64,000 nucleotides of DNA from Bradyrhizobium sp. NFR13 (GTDB taxonomy: Bacteria > Pseudomonadota > Alphaproteobacteria > Rhizobiales > Xanthobacteraceae), in the NCBI RefSeq assembly GCF_900114605.1, contig NZ_FOTP01000001.1:1364001-1428000 (forward strand), given 5' to 3'. Made by a program: the position numbers and the translations under genes. The first letter of the stretch is position 1, and every line of letters begins with the position of its first letter. Below the pieces are notes generated by a model, which was given only the letters and a program-made list of their open reading frames with translations, did not search any database and was not told the origin of the DNA. Below are positions 16,768 to 27,879 of the stretch, one piece after another.

Positions 16768-17376
16768 TCAGATCGCGATCATCTCTTCGCCGCGCAGGAA
16801 ACTCAACAGCGGCAGCAGCGGTAGGCCGAGAATGGTAAAGTGATCGCCTTCAATCAGCTCGAACAGATGCACACCCAGACCTTCGAGCTGATAGGCGCCG
16901 ACACTCGTCGTCACCTTTTCGCCCGCAGCGTCCAGATAGGCATTGATCGCCTCATCATCCAGCTTGCGCATGGTCATATGCGCCACGGAGACATTGGAGA
17001 ACAATGTCGCACCATCGCAAACGACGGCAAGCGCTGAATGCAATTCGTGGGTCCGGCCCGCGAGGATCGCAAGTTGTTCGGCCGCCTGTTCCCGTCCGGC
17101 GGGTTTGCTGAACATCCGATCGCCGAGCGCCAGGATTTGATCGGCGCCAAGAACATAGCGGCCGGGATGACGCAGCGAGATAAAGGCTGCCTTCCGCTCG
17201 GCGAGCAAGGCTGCGATCTCGCCAGGCGCCGTCAATCCGGATTTCTGCTGGATGCCGCGCTCGTCGATATCCGCCGGCATCGCGTCAAACGTAATGCCAG
17301 CATTCGCCAGCAACTCACGACGCGCCGAACTTTGCGACGCCAGGATCAGCGGTTGCACGCCACGCCAAATGGTCAT
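16768..17376 (-). CDS. maf: Maf-family nucleotide pyrophosphatase
   Basis: 202 residues. The family hydrolyses non-canonical or modified nucleoside triphosphates. Signatures: [18 protein letters not shown] at the N-terminus, [12 protein letters not shown] in place of the usual GADT, and [29 protein letters not shown]. The start overlaps the upstream ppsR stop as ATGA. YhdE/YceF-type substrate preference cannot be settled from sequence alone. Confidence 0.92.
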
Positions 17377-18215
17377 TCGGACATCCTCTGACGCTGGCGA
17401 TCGGCCAACAGTTTCATGATGGCCGCCGCGGTTTCCTCGATGGAGCGACGTGTCACTTCCAACAAAGCCCAGCCGTATTTGGCGCTAAGCTTGCGCGCAT
17501 AGGTGACTTCGTCCGTGACCGACTGGCGATCGATATAATCGTCATTGGCCGTATCGCTGCCAATGCTGAGAAGCCGGTTCTGGCGAATCTGAATCAAGCG
17601 CTCCGGCGTCGCGTGCAGGCTGACCACCAGCGGATTTTTCAACGTCTCAAGCTGATGGGGAATGGGGATGCCGGGGACGAGCGGCACATTGGCCGTGCGC
17701 ACACCACGATTGGCAAGATAGATCGATGTTGGTGTCTTCGATGTGCGCGAGACGCCGACCAGAACCACGTCCGCTTCTTCGAGGCCTTCCACATGCTGGC
17801 CGTCGTCATGCATCATCGAATAATTCAGCGCGTCGATACGCTTGAAATATTCGGCGTTGAGCGTGTGCTGCGCACCGACGCGGCCGGTGGTCGACGCACC
17901 AAGATAAGCCTGAAACAGCTGCATCACTGGCCCGATGATCGACAGGCTCGGGCTGTTGATCTCCTGGCACTTGGCTTCCAACCGGCCAACCAGATCTTTT
18001 TCCAGCAGCGTGAAGAGAACGATGCCGGGCGCTTCCTCTATTTCGGAGAGCACGCGATCGAGTTGTTTCTGGCTGCGGACCAGCGGATAGACATGCTCGA
18101 CCGGCGTGACATTCGCATATTGCGCCGCGACGGCGCGGGCCACCGTGATCAACGTCTCACCGGTCGAATCGGAGACCAGATGAAGATGAAAATAGCTGCC
18201 GGTGGTGGGCACCAT
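17373..18215 (-). CDS. ppsR: pyruvate, phosphate dikinase regulatory protein (DUF299 kinase/phosphorylase, RP001 homologue)
   Basis: 280 residues. The family is a bifunctional serine/threonine kinase and Pi-dependent phosphorylase that switches PPDK or PEP synthase. Motifs are [13 protein letters not shown] at the N-terminus, the P-loop [18 protein letters not shown], and VARAVAAQY. It is the first gene of the ppsR-maf-coaE-dnaQ run and borders the putative origin. In Rickettsia and Caulobacter the homologous gene (RP001) also flanks the chromosomal origin. Confidence 0.93.
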
Positions 18216-18684
18216 GATCGTGTATGTCCTGTGAATCTCTGTGGAGCTTTTCCGGGAAATCGACCATCGCCTCGGCGGGCCCGGGATAACTCGGTTTTTT
18301 CTTCACAGGGCTCATGAAGAGGAAAAGCTCTGAGGCTGCTCTGAATGATAATGGGGTTATCCGGGTTTGTCTTGGGATAATCCAGTGCACGGCGACGGTA
18401 AGCCTTTGCGCTGCATATCGAACTTGCATGCAGGCCGCTTTGGGGAAATCACGTGGCGATGTGCATAAGCGTGGGACAGTTCCGGGATTGTTTTGGGCGG
18501 CTGAAATCCACTGTCACTTAGACTCAAACCTAAGATTCTATAAATATTATTTAAGAGAAGGATGGCTTGCGGATAGCGCGGTGATCCGCTCTGTATCGGC
18601 GTGTCCTGCAACGCGGCTTTCCGGTGAAGTGTTCCGGTCTCGGCACGTGCGATGTGACGCACTGATGCTGGAAAGAACTTTCGA
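18216..18684. other. putative chromosomal replication origin (oriC)
   Basis: A 469-bp gap without genes between divergent ppsR and hemJ. In Caulobacter, Rickettsia and several rhizobia the origin lies between the RP001/ppsR homologue and the hemE/hemJ-rho side. Visible elements: a DnaA-box-like TGTGCATAA at 18460-18468 (8/9 to TGTGGATAA), weaker TTGGGATAA and TGCGGATAG (7/9), several GGATAA/TTATCC cores near 18290 and 18360, and an AT-rich 26-bp stretch at 18531-18556 (23 A/T) fit for unwinding. No perfect DnaA box was found. Synteny is the stronger argument. Confidence 0.6.
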
Positions 18685-19107
18685 ATGTATGAATGGGCCA
18701 AGGCGCTGCATGTGATCGCCGTCATCTCGTGGATGGCGGGCATGCTCTATCTGCCGCGACTGTTCGTCTATCACTGCGATGCGGAGATCGGCTCGAAGCA
18801 ATCCGAAACCTTCAAGGTGATGGAGCGTCGCCTGCTCAAGGCGATCATCAATCCGGCGATGATCGCCACCTGGATCCTCGGCCTGTATCTCGCCTGGGCC
18901 GGTCACTGGTTCAGCTCGGGCTGGTTTCACGCCAAACTGACGCTGGTGCTGCTGATGTCTGGCATTCATGGCTTCCTGAGTGCCCGGGTGCGTGATTTTG
19001 CTCAGGAAAAAAATACGCGGACTTCAAAATTCTATCGAATTATCAATGAGGTACCAACCGTTTTGATGATCCTGATCGTCATTTTGGTGATCGTGAAGCC
19101 GTTCTAG
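18685..19107 (+). CDS. hemJ: protoporphyrinogen IX oxidase HemJ (UPF0093)
   Basis: 140 residues with four hydrophobic helices (about 5-27, 54-72, 80-98 and 120-139). HemJ oxidises protoporphyrinogen IX to protoporphyrin IX using haem in the inner membrane. Signatures are KALHVIAVISWMAGMLYLPR with the conserved His, and INPAMIATWILGLYLAW. It is the first plus-strand gene right of the putative origin. The hemE gene often found beside it in rhizobia is not in this window. Confidence 0.93.
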   Translation: MYEWAKALHVIAVISWMAGMLYLPRLFVYHCDAEIGSKQSETFKVMERRLLKAIINPAMIATWILGLYLAWAGHWFSSGWFHAKLTLVLLMSGIHGFLSARVRDFAQEKNTRTSKFYRIINEVPTVLMILIVILVIVKPF

Positions 19108-19381: not shown

Positions 19382-20647
<1,266 letters not shown>

Positions 20648-20882: not shown

Positions 20883-22217
20883 ATGCATCCACGCGACCAG
20901 ACGATCTACGCTTTGTCCTCCGGCCGCCCGCCGACGGCGATTGCGATTGTCCGCGTGTCAGGTTCTCAGGCAGGTGAGGCGCTGACGCGTCTGGCAAGGA
21001 AGCTGCCGGCACCGCGGATGGCCACCCATGTTCTCCTCTCGGATGACCGGCTCGGCCCGATCGACGATGCGGTGGTGCTGTGGTTTCCGGGGCCAGCGAG
21101 CGCGACCGGCGAGGACGTTGCCGAATTTCATATTCATGGCGGGCGCGCGGTATTGGCTTCTTTGTTTGAGGCCCTGGGCGCCATCGACGACTTACGGCCG
21201 GCGGAGCCCGGCGAATTCACGCGCCGCGCGTTCGAGAACGGCAAGCTCGACCTGACCGAGGCGGAAGGCCTCGACGATCTGATTCACGCGGACACTGACC
21301 GGCAGCGGCGTCAGGCGCTGCGGCAGCTCAAGGGACTGCTCGGCGACAAGGCGCGCAACTGGCGACAGCAGATCATCGAGGCGCTGGCCCTGGTCGAAGT
21401 CGGCATCGATTTTTCTGACGAAGGCGACGTATCCGCCGAATTGCTGGCGCCGGCTTTGGCGAAAGCATCGGCGCTGCATCGGGAGATCGAGGAGGTGCTG
21501 GCGGCGCATGGTCGAAGCGAGCGGTTGCGCGACGGTCTGGTGGTGGCCATCGCGGGTCAGCCTAATGTCGGCAAATCGACGCTGATGAATCAGCTCGCCC
21601 GGCGCGATGTCGCAATCGTATCACCGCATGCGGGCACCACCCGGGACGTCATCGAGGTGCAGCTCGATCTCGACGGTTATCCGGTGACGATCATCGATAC
21701 CGCCGGCATTCGCGAGACGGCTGATCCGGTGGAGGGGGAGGGCGTGCGCCGGGCGCGGGCTCGGGCGGCCGAAGCGGATCTGGTGCTATGGCTGGTCGAC
21801 TCCGGCGCGGAGGCGTCCAATCCGGGGCAATGGTTGGCGGAATCTGAAACGCCGGTCTGGGTGGTCCGGAACAAGGTCGATCTGATCCAGGGTGCGTCGG
21901 CCGGGCCAGACTTGTTGATCGCGATCTCTGCAGAGCGCGGCGATGGCCTCGCACGACTGTTGGCCCTGCTGATCGATTTCGCCGGTCGGTACTTCGGGAG
22001 CGGAGAGGCCGGGCTGATTACCCGGGAGCGGCAACGTCTTTTGCTGCGCAGCACGTCGGATTTGCTGCAGCATGCTGCAGCATCGGCTGAGCAAGGCGAA
22101 GAATTCGTTGCCGAGGATATGCGTGCTGCAGCGCAGCAATTGGGACGATTGCTTGGGCGTGTTGATGTAGAGGATATCCTCGATAGCATCTTTCGGGACT
22201 TTTGTATAGGTAAGTAA
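20883..22217 (+). CDS. mnmE: tRNA modification GTPase MnmE
   Basis: 444 residues. With MnmG it makes the 5-carboxymethylaminomethyl group on wobble uridine 34. The N-terminal THF-binding domain begins [23 protein letters not shown]. The inserted G domain has G1 GQPNVGKST, switch DTAGIRET and NKVD. The C-terminus ends CIGK, the conserved catalytic-cysteine motif. It starts 6 codons into a typical [11 protein letters not shown]-terminus. The mnmG gene follows after a 294-bp, AT-rich, parS-bearing gap. Confidence 0.97.
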
Positions 22218-22395: not shown

Positions 22396-22411
22396 TGTTT
22401 CACGTGAAACA
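22396..22411. other. parS site 1
   Basis: Perfect 16-bp palindrome TGTTTCACGTGAAACA, matching the bacterial ParB-binding consensus TGTTNCACGTGAAACA. Located between mnmE and mnmG, about 3.6 kb upstream of parA. Confidence 0.95.
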
Positions 22412-22441: not shown

Positions 22442-22457
22442 TGTTTCACGTGAAACA
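22442..22457. other. parS site 2
   Basis: A second perfect copy of TGTTTCACGTGAAACA, 46 bp after site 1 (start to start), still upstream of the mnmG start. Confidence 0.95.
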
Positions 22458-24388: not shown

Positions 24389-24404
24389 TGTTTCACGTGA
24401 AACA
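24389..24404. other. parS site 3
   Basis: Perfect TGTTTCACGTGAAACA, 5 bp after the mnmG stop and just beyond the stop of the convergent small membrane protein gene. Confidence 0.95.
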
Positions 24405-24689: not shown

Positions 24690-25223
24690 CTATACTGCAA
24701 ACCTTTGCGCCCTCAGGGCGGCATTCAGCTGGTTATCAGAGGTGCTGAACAGGTCGTACAGGACGGCGTAAGGATCGCCTTCAAGCTTGAGAGCACGCGC
24801 AAAGGCAGGCTCCGTCTTTACTCCTCCGGCCCGTAACGCGCAGATGGCGGTGTGGAAGGCGGGTGCGCCCAGGGTCAGCAGTCGCTTCTCGACCTCGAAG
24901 TGCCGCCAGCCAGCTTGATCCTGTACGGGAGTCGAGCTGACAAAGATCTCGAACGGCCATCCATACGCTTCGAATGTCGCGATCACCGGTCGGCCTTTGG
25001 CCGACCATTGATAGATGGCAAAGCTTTCGGACTCGCCGAAGTGCTTCCAAACAAGTTCAACAGCCGCGGCCAGGTCGGCGGCGCAACAGACGATATCGAT
25101 GTCACTGTCGGGCCGGGCGACGCCGAGCGGCAGTGTGCCGACCACATGCGGGTCGAACGGCGCGAGGACGCCGAGCAGGCCGGTGCGTCGAAGGGCTTCC
25201 TGATAGGTCGGTCGTTCATTCAT
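24690..25223 (-). CDS. DUF4269 nucleotidyltransferase-like protein
   Basis: 177 residues from ATG 25223 (MNERPTYQEALRRTG). The segment GTLPLGVARPDSDIDIVC has the G-[ST]-x(n)-D-x-D pattern of the nucleotidyltransferase fold, matching DUF4269. The rest includes RPVIATFEAYGWPFEIFVSS, which could supply the third acidic residue. No activity is established for the family; its fold is also found in minimal nucleotidyltransferases of toxin-antitoxin and tRNA-handling systems, but no HEPN partner is present. It is inserted, on the opposite strand, between mnmG and rsmG. Confidence 0.7.
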   Translation of the reverse strand: MNERPTYQEALRRTGLLGVLAPFDPHVVGTLPLGVARPDSDIDIVCCAADLAAAVELVWKHFGESESFAIYQWSAKGRPVIATFEAYGWPFEIFVSSTPVQDQAGWRHFEVEKRLLTLGAPAFHTAICALRAGGVKTEPAFARALKLEGDPYAVLYDLFSTSDNQLNAALRAQRFAV

Positions 25224-25325
25224 CGGCAATTCCCGCCCGGATTTGTCGTCTCGCTCCGGCAATTCGATAGCGACACAAATGGACTCAGAGTATGGATGGG
25301 TCCCAACAGCTTTTCAGACAATCCA

Positions 25326-26036
25326 ATGGCTCAACGATCCCAGCAAGCAGCTCCCACACCCCGGCTCGATGCCGACAAGGCTGCGGCCTTGCGGCTGACA
25401 CCTGTTTCACGTGAAACGGAGGGCAGGCTCGATCGCTATGTCGACCTGCTGCTGCAATGGCAGGCCAAGACCAATCTGATTTCGCCCGCGACGCTTCCAA
25501 ATCTCTGGACGCGCCATATCTCGGATTCGCTGCAGCTTCTGAACCTCGCGCCGGATGCAAAGATCTGGCTCGACTTCGGCAGCGGCGGAGGCTTCCCCGG
25601 TGTGGTTCTGGCCTGTGCCATGGGTGACGTTGCAGGTGGACATGTTCATCTCGTCGAGCGCAACGCCAAGAAGGCGGCGTTCCTGCGCGAAGCGCTGCGC
25701 GTGACGCAAGCCCCAGGCACAATTCATCTGGCTGACATCGGGGATAATGTGGATAGATTTCCCGAACGCGTCGATTGCATCACCGCACGTGCTGTTGCCT
25801 CGTTACATATCGTCATCGGTTTCGCCGAGCCCCTGATGAAGCCGGGCACAAAAGCCTTATTTCTCAAGGGTCAAGATGTAGAATCGGAATTGACCGAAGC
25901 TACTAGATATTGGAATATAAGCCCGCGCCTGCATGCCAGCCTGACCGGCGGACAAGGCTGGATCGTCGAACTCGACCGGATCGAGCGACTGACCCCGTCC
26001 GCAAACCAAAATGGCCACGCCAATGACCGTAATTGA
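25326..26036 (+). CDS. rsmG: 16S rRNA (guanine-527-N7)-methyltransferase RsmG (GidB)
   Basis: 236 residues from ATG 25326; an in-frame ATG at 25296 is also possible and neither has a strong ribosome-binding site. It methylates G527 of 16S rRNA using SAM. SAM-binding motif is WLDFGSGGGFPGVVLA, then HLVERNAKKAAFLRE and CITARAVASL. The N-terminal VSRETEGRLDRYVDLLLQWQ is family-conserved, and its VSRET codons are the fourth parS site. Its end overlaps the parA start by 26 bp. Confidence 0.95.
   Translation: MAQRSQQAAPTPRLDADKAAALRLTPVSRETEGRLDRYVDLLLQWQAKTNLISPATLPNLWTRHISDSLQLLNLAPDAKIWLDFGSGGGFPGVVLACAMGDVAGGHVHLVERNAKKAAFLREALRVTQAPGTIHLADIGDNVDRFPERVDCITARAVASLHIVIGFAEPLMKPGTKALFLKGQDVESELTEATRYWNISPRLHASLTGGQGWIVELDRIERLTPSANQNGHANDRN
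25403..25418. other. parS site 4, inside rsmG
   Basis: TGTTTCACGTGAAACG, 15 of 16 bases to consensus (last base G). It encodes the VSRET residues of RsmG, so coding and ParB-binding constraints coincide. Confidence 0.85.
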
Positions 26037-26877
26037 TCAAGAATATCAAGAGGATACGTCAAATACGATGCCCGGACACCCGCGTATCCTGGCGCTGGCC
26101 AACCAGAAGGGTGGCGTCGGCAAGACCACCACCGCGATCAATCTCGGCACGGCACTGGCTGCCATCGGAGAGCGCGTGCTGATCGTCGATCTCGATCCGC
26201 AGGGCAATGCGTCCACTGGTCTCGGTATCGATCGTCGCAATCGCAACTGCTCGACCTATGACGTTCTGATTGGCGAAGCGCCGCTGCGCGATGCTGTCGT
26301 GGTCACCGCGGTGCCGCGTCTGCACATCGCTGCGTCGACCATGGACCTTTCGGGTCTCGAGCTCGAACTCGGTTCGGCCCGCGACCGCGCCTTCCGGCTG
26401 CGCGATGCCATCGGCGAATTGAACAACAATGTCTCGCCCGGCTCCGACTACACTTACGTGCTGATCGACTGCCCGCCGTCGCTCAATCTTCTTACGGTCA
26501 ATGCGATGGCCGCGTCGGATGCGATCCTGGTGCCGCTGCAGTGTGAGTTCTTCGCGCTCGAAGGTCTGTCGCAATTACTGCAGACGGTAGAGCAGGTACG
26601 CTCGACGCTGAACCCGAACCTGTCGATTCATGGCATCGTGATGACCATGTTCGATGCGCGCAACAACCTGTCGAACCAGGTCGTTGCCGACGTGCGCGAA
26701 TTCATGGGCAGCAAGGTTTACGACACCATGATCCCGCGCAACGTCCGCATTTCGGAAGCGCCGTCCTACGGCAAGCCGGTGCTGGTCTATGATCTGAAGT
26801 GCTCGGGCTCCGAAGCCTATCTACGGCTCGCGACCGAAGTGATCCAGCGCGAGCGCGATCTGCGTACTGCTCACTGA
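26011..26877 (+). CDS. parA: chromosome partitioning ATPase ParA (Soj)
   Basis: 288 residues if started at ATG 26011; an internal ATG at 26068 (MPGHPRILALANQKGG) is an alternative that avoids the rsmG overlap. Deviant Walker A is NQKGGVGKTTTAINLG, switch I region LIVDLDPQGNASTGLG, and Walker B VLIDCPPSLNLLTVNA. ATP-bound dimers coat DNA and move ParB-parS complexes. It lacks the long N-terminal HTH of plasmid type Ia ParA, as expected of a chromosomal copy. parB follows after 90 bp. Confidence 0.97.
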   Translation: MATPMTVIDQEYQEDTSNTMPGHPRILALANQKGGVGKTTTAINLGTALAAIGERVLIVDLDPQGNASTGLGIDRRNRNCSTYDVLIGEAPLRDAVVVTAVPRLHIAASTMDLSGLELELGSARDRAFRLRDAIGELNNNVSPGSDYTYVLIDCPPSLNLLTVNAMAASDAILVPLQCEFFALEGLSQLLQTVEQVRSTLNPNLSIHGIVMTMFDARNNLSNQVVADVREFMGSKVYDTMIPRNVRISEAPSYGKPVLVYDLKCSGSEAYLRLATEVIQRERDLRTAH

Positions 26878-26967: not shown

Positions 26968-27879
26968 ATGAGTTCGAAGGGATTGGCCATGGCCGATGAA
27001 GCGCGTTCGCGGTTGGGCCGCGGTCTTGCAAGTCTGATCGGCGATGTCGGCGGCGAAGCCGCGCATGTCGAGCGTCCTTCGCGTAACCAGCGCAAGGTGC
27101 CGATCGAATTCCTCAAGGCCAATCCGCGCAATCCGCGTCGGGCCTTTGCCGATGCTGAGCTCAGCGAACTCGCAGCGTCGATCAAGCAACATGGCGTGAT
27201 CCAGCCGATCGTGGTGCGTCCGGTGAAGGGCTCGAATGATCGCTTCGAGATCATCGCCGGCGAACGCCGCTGGCGTGCATCGCAGATCGCCGGTCTGCAT
27301 GAAGTGCCGATCGTGCCGCTCGACGTGACGGATTCGGCCGCGATGGAAATCGCGATCATCGAGAACGTCCAGCGCGAAGATCTCAATGCGATGGAAGAGG
27401 CACAGGGCTATCACGCGCTCGCCGAGACCTACAAACACAGCCAGGACGAGATCGCGAAAATCGTCGGCAAGAGCCGCAGCCATGTCGCCAACATGATGCG
27501 CCTCACCAAGCTGCCGGTGGACGTGCAGGATCTGATCGCGGCGGGCCAGTTGTCCAACGGTCACGCCCGCGCACTGATCAACCTGCCGGATGCGTCGAGC
27601 GCCGCGAAGCGGATCATTGCCGAAGGACTGAACGTTCGTCAGACCGAAGCACTCGCGCATGAAGAGGGTGTGCCCGAGCGCGCGCCGCAGAAACCGCGCT
27701 CGTCGTCACCCAAGGCGGCGAAGGATGCCGACACGATCGCACTGGAGAAGCGGGTTAGCGATGTGCTCGGGCTGAAGGTGTCGGTGGATCACCGCGATCC
27801 CGGCGGCACTGTGATCATCAAGTATCGTGATCTGGATCAGCTCGACGAAATTCTGAAGCGGCTGGATTCGGAGAGTTAA
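26968..27879 (+). CDS. parB: chromosome partitioning protein ParB (Spo0J)
   Basis: 303 residues. The N-terminus (RSRLGRGLASLIGD) is the ParA-stimulating region. CTP-binding motifs are VIQPIVVRPV, IIAGERRWRA and IENVQREDLNAMEEA; the HTH for parS is DEIAKIVGKSRSHVANMMRL. The C-terminal dimerisation domain follows a basic Ser/Pro/Lys linker (about 235-255). Its stop overlaps the convergent holA stop by 4 bp. The targets are presumably the four parS sites at 22.4-25.4 kb. Confidence 0.97.
   Translation: MSSKGLAMADEARSRLGRGLASLIGDVGGEAAHVERPSRNQRKVPIEFLKANPRNPRRAFADAELSELAASIKQHGVIQPIVVRPVKGSNDRFEIIAGERRWRASQIAGLHEVPIVPLDVTDSAAMEIAIIENVQREDLNAMEEAQGYHALAETYKHSQDEIAKIVGKSRSHVANMMRLTKLPVDVQDLIAAGQLSNGHARALINLPDASSAAKRIIAEGLNVRQTEALAHEEGVPERAPQKPRSSSPKAAKDADTIALEKRVSDVLGLKVSVDHRDPGGTVIIKYRDLDQLDEILKRLDSES

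Follow-up and report, generated by a model that had tools for sequence, protein, structure and literature searches.

The gap between ppsR and hemJ as the probable replication origin of a Tardiphaga-like chromosome, with hemE no longer at its side

In Caulobacter and Rickettsia, the chromosomal origin lies between hemE and the gene for COG1806/RP001, according to the available part of PMC1914354. In the DNA considered here, the COG1806 homologue ppsR faces hemJ, not hemE, across a short gap, and the question arises whether replication of the chromosome starts there. The initial annotation had proposed so, taking ppsR-hemJ to be the origin site of Caulobacter and Rickettsia as well; for these two organisms the pair has to be corrected to COG1806 (RP001, ppsR) and hemE (PMC1914354, same excerpt). 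The proposal itself is supported by GC skew, parS clustering, conservation of the gap and density of DnaA half-boxes. From its computed place, conservation, skew, duplex stability and motif enrichment, the gap is very probably oriC, the origin of chromosome replication, and a homologue of the ppsR-hemE origin of Alphaproteobacteria in which hemE is no longer adjacent.

Gene order, GC skew and the departure of hemE

The window is the whole 64-kb stretch of DNA that was analysed, positions 1364001-1428000 of contig C6, in a genome of 6.22 Mb in 17 contigs. The host is Tardiphaga or a very near relative, because its PpsR is 100% identical to those of Tardiphaga robiniae LMG 26467 and Tardiphaga sp. 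P9-11. Loci of Tardiphaga, Bradyrhizobium, Rhodopseudomonas, Afipia and Nitrobacter were compared under the name Nitrobacteraceae, which we take to be the name of this group. The minus strand carries dnaQ, coaE, maf and ppsR, in this order; after the gap, the plus strand carries hemJ, rho, mnmE, mnmG, rsmG, parA and parB. The extent of the gap between the divergent ppsR and hemJ, as first annotated, was reproduced to the nucleotide.

18216-18684: gap of 469 bp between ppsR and hemJ, probable oriC; its length and blocks are kept in 88 distinct gaps
17373-18215, minus strand: ppsR (RP001/COG1806 homologue), left neighbour (NF003742, 341 bits)
18685-19107, plus strand: hemJ, right neighbour (TIGR00701, 171 bits)
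22396-22411: parS
22442-22457: parS
24389-24404: parS
25403-25418: parS-like site, one mismatch
26011-26877, plus strand: parA-family partition ATPase (NF041546, 105 bits, below the cut-off of 180)
26968-27879, plus strand: parB (PF02195, PF17762, PF23552)

It had been suggested that cumulative GC skew over the whole chromosome should have its minimum at this place. Over the contiguous 444 kb of the own contig on which the check was run, the minimum falls at window position 20932, 2.2 kb from the gap, and the best change-point at 20001. Skew samples along the contig are negative in 15 of the 16 taken left of the window and positive in 3 of the 4 taken right of it. Three relatives were also sampled, more densely near the gap, so that their skew fits are not independent of this choice. 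The detrended minimum lies 7 kb from the gap in G002 (one contig, 40 samples) and 25 kb from it in G007 (one contig, 20 samples). The picture is mixed in G193, from another genus of the same family (20 samples): a two-breakpoint fit gives 150-160 kb for a gap at 149 kb, and the detrended sampled minimum is 657 kb away, which counts against the origin. So do the minima at 5.21 Mb (G007) and 6.81 Mb (G193) obtained without detrending.

The four parS sites first annotated near the gap were located 3.7-6.7 kb from it, the fourth with one mismatch; 0.02 such sites are expected in the window, and all four parS-like sites of the genome fall inside it. In six relatives, parS-like sites are likewise clustered within about 8 kb of ppsR, the strays being one 1-mismatch site each in G009 and G016. 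For KOPS-like motifs, the counts in 20-kb samples were too low for a strand bias to be used. As a side observation, the open reading frame called rsmG (24852-26036) matches TIGR00138 only from residue 194 and contains the parS-like site 25403 in its 5′ part; for these two reasons, the true rsmG start is probably further in.

Of 98 ppsR loci compared from the genus and the family, 96 have the order ppsR-gap-hemJ, and the other two have no hemJ match on the available piece. The genus set (L012-L029) and the named set (L030-L109) share members, and the 98 loci are thus not 98 independent genomes; one of the locus-collecting searches gave 38 matches and 30 loci. The 96 gaps measure 411-603 bp, with a median of 468, and collapse to 88 distinct ones. 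Among 51 ppsR loci sampled from other families, 46 have hemE after the gap, and these are the 46 used below; the five without a hemE match were left out. Within the family, hemE was beside the ppsR gap in none of the 98 loci. The own hemE is on contig C8, and in six relatives the gene lies about 0.9-1.6 Mb from ppsR.

Descent from the ppsR-hemE type is supported by a conserved block of the gap (model R1, described below), since it directly precedes hemE in three genomes of another family. The origin element has been kept in place and hemE has left its side. The gene order seen in other families suggests that hemJ then became the right neighbour. Three further cases may be mentioned. In L211 (G033, another family of the order, outside Nitrobacteraceae), hemJ follows ppsR with no hemE between, which may mean that hemE was lost from beside the origin a second time, independently. 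In L234 (G346, same class), rho follows ppsR, with no hemE or hemJ match between. In G016, hemE (C1:2620696-2621699) consists of two adjoining pieces in different open frames, through either a frameshift or an assembly error.

Degenerate DnaA boxes and a conserved melting block

The gap contains a series of weak sites. In what follows, TTWTNCACA is taken to be the broader DnaA-box consensus.

18230-18238, minus strand: weak DnaA box (TNCACA half-box); half-box in 75 of 88 gaps; overlaps the next feature
18233-18237: GANTC overlapping the weak box, in 56 of 88 gaps
18240-18248, minus strand: weak DnaA box (TNCACA half-box), in 68 of 88 gaps
18284-18289, minus strand: TTATCC core, in 71 of 88 gaps
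18299-18307, plus strand: DnaA box TTCTTCACA, one mismatch to TTWTNCACA; box with at most one mismatch in 85 of 88 gaps
18357-18362, plus strand: TTATCC core of the own sequence, outside the columns common to at least 18 gaps
18375-18380, minus strand: TTATCC core, in 19 of 88 gaps
18460-18468, minus strand: 8/9 DnaA box TGTGCATAA / TTATGCACA; at most one mismatch to TTWTNCACA in 67 of 88 gaps
18504-18511, plus strand: box-like AAATCCAC facing the AT-rich block; A4, C7 and C9 invariant in 42 aligned sequences
18516-18538, plus strand: conserved sequence ACTTAGACTCAAACCTAAGATTC, start of block 18516-18559; most columns 80-99% over 88 gaps
18521-18525: putative CcrM site GANTC (GACTC), in 83 of 88 gaps
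18530-18559: least stable 30-mer of the window in a nearest-neighbour energy scan, presumed DNA unwinding element
18534-18538: putative CcrM site GANTC (GATTC), in 83 of 88 gaps; middle base T in 54, A in 29

The 8/9 box and the GGATAA/TTATCC cores of the initial annotation are thus in place, and its AT-rich stretch corresponds to the least stable 30-mer of the 64 kb. The perfect box TTATCCACA is absent from the window, as had been noted. The accompanying idea that the box set may be unusual was right in part, and the perfect box is also missing from all 88 distinct related gaps; it occurs 12 times in the whole genome. The DNA-contacting segment of DnaA, GGRDHTTVLHA, is identical to that of the solved structure 1j1v, and the recognition helix is the usual one.

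A DnaA-box cluster is present as degenerate boxes only. Boxes with at most one mismatch number 5 in the window versus 4.5 expected, and the lone 8/9 box is not significant. Measured against TTWTNCACA, the 18460 box is a full match, of which 1.3% of 300 gap shuffles have one. At up to one mismatch the own gap has two such boxes, a count that 12% of shuffles reach and that speaks against an origin; over the 88 gaps the density is 2.39 per gap versus 0.55 in shuffles. TNCACA half-boxes occupy six shared columns, each filled in 49-87 of the 88 gaps; the own gap is without two of them (18221 and 18360). Within the own 444 kb, the gap's four half-boxes are equalled or exceeded at two other places, one of them with five, which is again counted against the origin. 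Three TTATCC cores, as found in the gap, occurred in none of 300 shuffles; of the 1888 windows taken across the surrounding 444 kb, those covering the gap among them, two have as many.

CtrA sites (at most two mismatches) are not above chance in the own gap, with 4 versus 2.95 expected, and IHF sites in it number zero. In 49 ppsR-hemE gaps, CtrA-like sites reach 0.76 versus 0.27 in shuffles. Both kinds of site are missing from some published origins too, as far as the accessible text of PMC1914354 goes.

The right-hand block was described by R1, a model built from sequence only, using 42 of 61 sequences chosen. It has a single match, at 18516-18538, in the 724 kb of sources searched. In the order, R1 matches 15 of 297 genomes, one match each (12 of the same family, 3 of another family); two genomes of the same family had no match among the matches listed. 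The Afipia-like loci L079, L101, L103 and L109 deviate from the ACTTAGACTCAAACCTAAGATTC block. As a further observation, the block carries an inverted repeat whose arms, CTTAG and CTAAG, are spaced 8 bp apart (18517-18534). CTNAG is strongly depleted in the gaps of 46 families (9 versus 53.7 in shuffles, for the rest of the gap).

Would the gap then be only the promoter region of the divergent ppsR and hemJ, with the origin nearby, for example in the parS-bearing mnmE-mnmG gap? The promoters of both genes must presumably sit in the gap too. The skew minimum at 20932 falls between the two gaps, and with 50-bp energy windows the lowest stability of the 64 kb is found in the mnmE-mnmG gap, the 18530-18559 region coming second. 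A promoter-only gap is nevertheless very unlikely: its length of about 470 bp and its blocks are kept over the family, in 59 of the 61 loci of relatives that measure at least 12 kb, half-box density is strictly highest in the gap, and in another family the same block is followed by hemE and not by hemJ.

An origin at dnaA, which oriC adjoins in many bacteria, or one that moved away with hemE has a negligible probability. The skew curve in the 444 kb rules out dnaA, which lies about 210 kb from the gap and high on the curve (+854 versus −2204 at the minimum). Alphaproteobacterial origins usually have hemE as a flank (PMC1914354, accessible portion); an origin at the new place of this gene is rejected, given that a box search with three patterns, one of them read on one strand only, found no match upstream of the relocated hemE in 7 genomes of the genus Tardiphaga, and that in G002 the sampled skew stays negative across hemE (4.35 Mb), without turning.

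Taking the ppsR-hemJ gap as the origin, the following mechanism may be envisaged. DnaA would bind the spread set of low-affinity boxes (18230-18468) and oligomerise from the box-like site 18504, which is likely to be the box that sets off melting, into the AT-rich block 18516-18559. This block would melt and receive two helicases. The copies would then be segregated by ParB bound to the parS sites 4-7 kb away. We infer these events at the gap from the arrangement of its motifs.

A site facing an AT-rich block recalls the BUS (DnaA-trio) origin, whose published rule asks for at least three 3′-NAN-5′ trios within 16 bp of a DnaA box (PMC8287927, available part). At the 18504 box, read on the strand taken to carry the trios, the rule holds in none of the 88 Nitrobacteraceae gaps versus 24 in one shuffle each, and in 12 of 88 when the other strand is read. 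For any box with at most two mismatches on either strand, it holds in 40 of 88 gaps versus 29 shuffled, and in the gaps of the class in 8 of 26 versus 10.2 expected. The gap was therefore not filed as a BUS origin. Nucleotides following AT[CT]CAC sites in alphaproteobacterial gaps do show a periodicity of 3 nt (z 7.9 at lag 3 and 4.0 at lag 6; 39 sites in the 26 gaps holding the motif). Deviant trios are suspected among the 15% of genomes without a match, in the portion of PMC8287927 at hand.

GANTC sites in the melting block

The GANTC count of the own gap alone, 3 versus 2.46 expected, is not above chance. Across families and in the 88 gaps, GANTC sites are concentrated and conserved in the origin. 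When one gap from each of 46 other families is taken, 67 GANTC lie between −80 and +40 of hemE versus 19.2 in shuffles (3.5-fold), and 36 of the 46 families have at least one; the next best of 16 NNxNN palindromes reaches 1.33-fold in this segment, and GANTC itself only 1.4-fold in the rest of the gap. Anchored on the box, GANTC occurs 15-65 nt after it in 26 of the 46 gaps versus 6.4 in shuffles; the box score also favours A-rich, G-poor DNA, and the hemE-segment count repeats the test without the box. In the family, the variable middle base of the second site (54 T, 29 A) suggests selection on the site as such.

The genome encodes a CcrM-like methylase with a RAMA domain, scoring 610 bits to NF050803 (cut-off 830); the name CcrM is given on account of this score, the domain and orthologues in other genomes. 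A strong match to it was found in 46 of 47 genomes, so that the presence of CcrM is uninformative as to GANTC.

What would these sites do? At each firing of the origin, the two GANTC sites of the melting block would pass from full to hemi-methylation, and as a guess, their methylation may tune melting or protein binding. In C. crescentus, full methylation of Cori has been modelled as a condition for initiation (PMC2217572, excerpt), and several GANTC motifs are found in the origin (PMC3973325, citing Shaheen 2009, in the part available).

It is quite possible that the sites of the block are instead promoter elements, for example for GcrA/CcrM control of hemE or hemJ, unrelated to initiation. 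CcrM sites are known to serve as promoter elements. According to the accessible part of PMC3973325, initiation control in C. crescentus does not depend on CcrM; depletion of the enzyme in Agrobacterium caused no obvious change at ori1, in the available text of PMC11514494. The exception to the methylase survey, G335, still keeps GANTC in its gap, and the count in the own gap is, as said, unremarkable. However, each of the two sites is found in 83 of 88 gaps although hemE is gone, and the nearest GANTC at the relocated hemE lies 131 nt before the PFLD motif near the protein start (7 genomes of the genus Tardiphaga). The box-anchored excess in other families also argues against promoter elements.

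A broader proposal, which we put forward as a rather unlikely one, is that a class-wide CcrM site lies in the alphaproteobacterial unwinding element, beside a trinucleotide-periodic element that departs from the published trio rule, and that full or hemi-methylation modulates melting or access of DnaA or GcrA, as a GANTC counterpart of GATC control at enterobacterial oriC. Among the matches listed from open-licence papers, no report was found of class-wide GANTC in an unwinding element; the available part of PMC4752239 describes four clusters of orphan-methylase motifs at origins, GANTC not being among them.

Relation to known origins

The closest parallels of the ppsR-hemJ gap are Cori of Caulobacter crescentus and the predicted Rickettsia origin, with the same ppsR flank, an AT-rich element, weak DnaA boxes and ParB/parS nearby (PMC1914354, in the part seen); Cori also shares GANTC in the origin (PMC3973325, likewise). 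The gap differs from them by its right neighbour, by CtrA and IHF sites that are not above chance, and by a melting block nearly fixed over the family. With BUS of Bacillus subtilis, it shares a box-like site that faces an AT-rich melting block (PMC8287927, excerpt), and in other alphaproteobacterial families the box is followed by a 3-nt periodic element; the trio count at the 18504 box sets the gap apart. As in enterobacterial oriC, sites of an orphan adenine methylase are concentrated in the origin; here they are few, lie inside the melting element and belong to GANTC/CcrM instead of GATC/Dam. We know of no SeqA homologue here.

The kind of origin is thus known, and the hemE-less neighbourhood, the degenerate boxes and the conserved melting block with two CcrM sites apparently make a new variant. 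Among the matches listed from open-licence papers, no report of a hemE-less origin in Nitrobacteraceae was found. One conserved gap of about 470 bp can be linked to the probable origin in Tardiphaga and, through homology, in Bradyrhizobium, Rhodopseudomonas, Nitrobacter and Afipia; a search relying on hemE or on perfect DnaA boxes might overlook it. The separation of hemE acts as a natural control, in which the methylation sites stayed with the origin, and the old question of whether CcrM methylation acts at alphaproteobacterial origins becomes testable at two defined sites.

Earlier predictions exist in the family. The origin of Bradyrhizobium S23321 was predicted from skew and 'signature sequences' (PMC4036050, available part), and the supplement of that paper may already note the location described here. 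In Oligotropha carboxidovorans OM5, the origin predicted at 357,583 was credited with four tgtttcacg 'DnaA boxes' (PMC3091675, excerpt). This motif is the left half of the parS palindrome, and the OM5 call, as worded in that excerpt, may therefore rest on parS.
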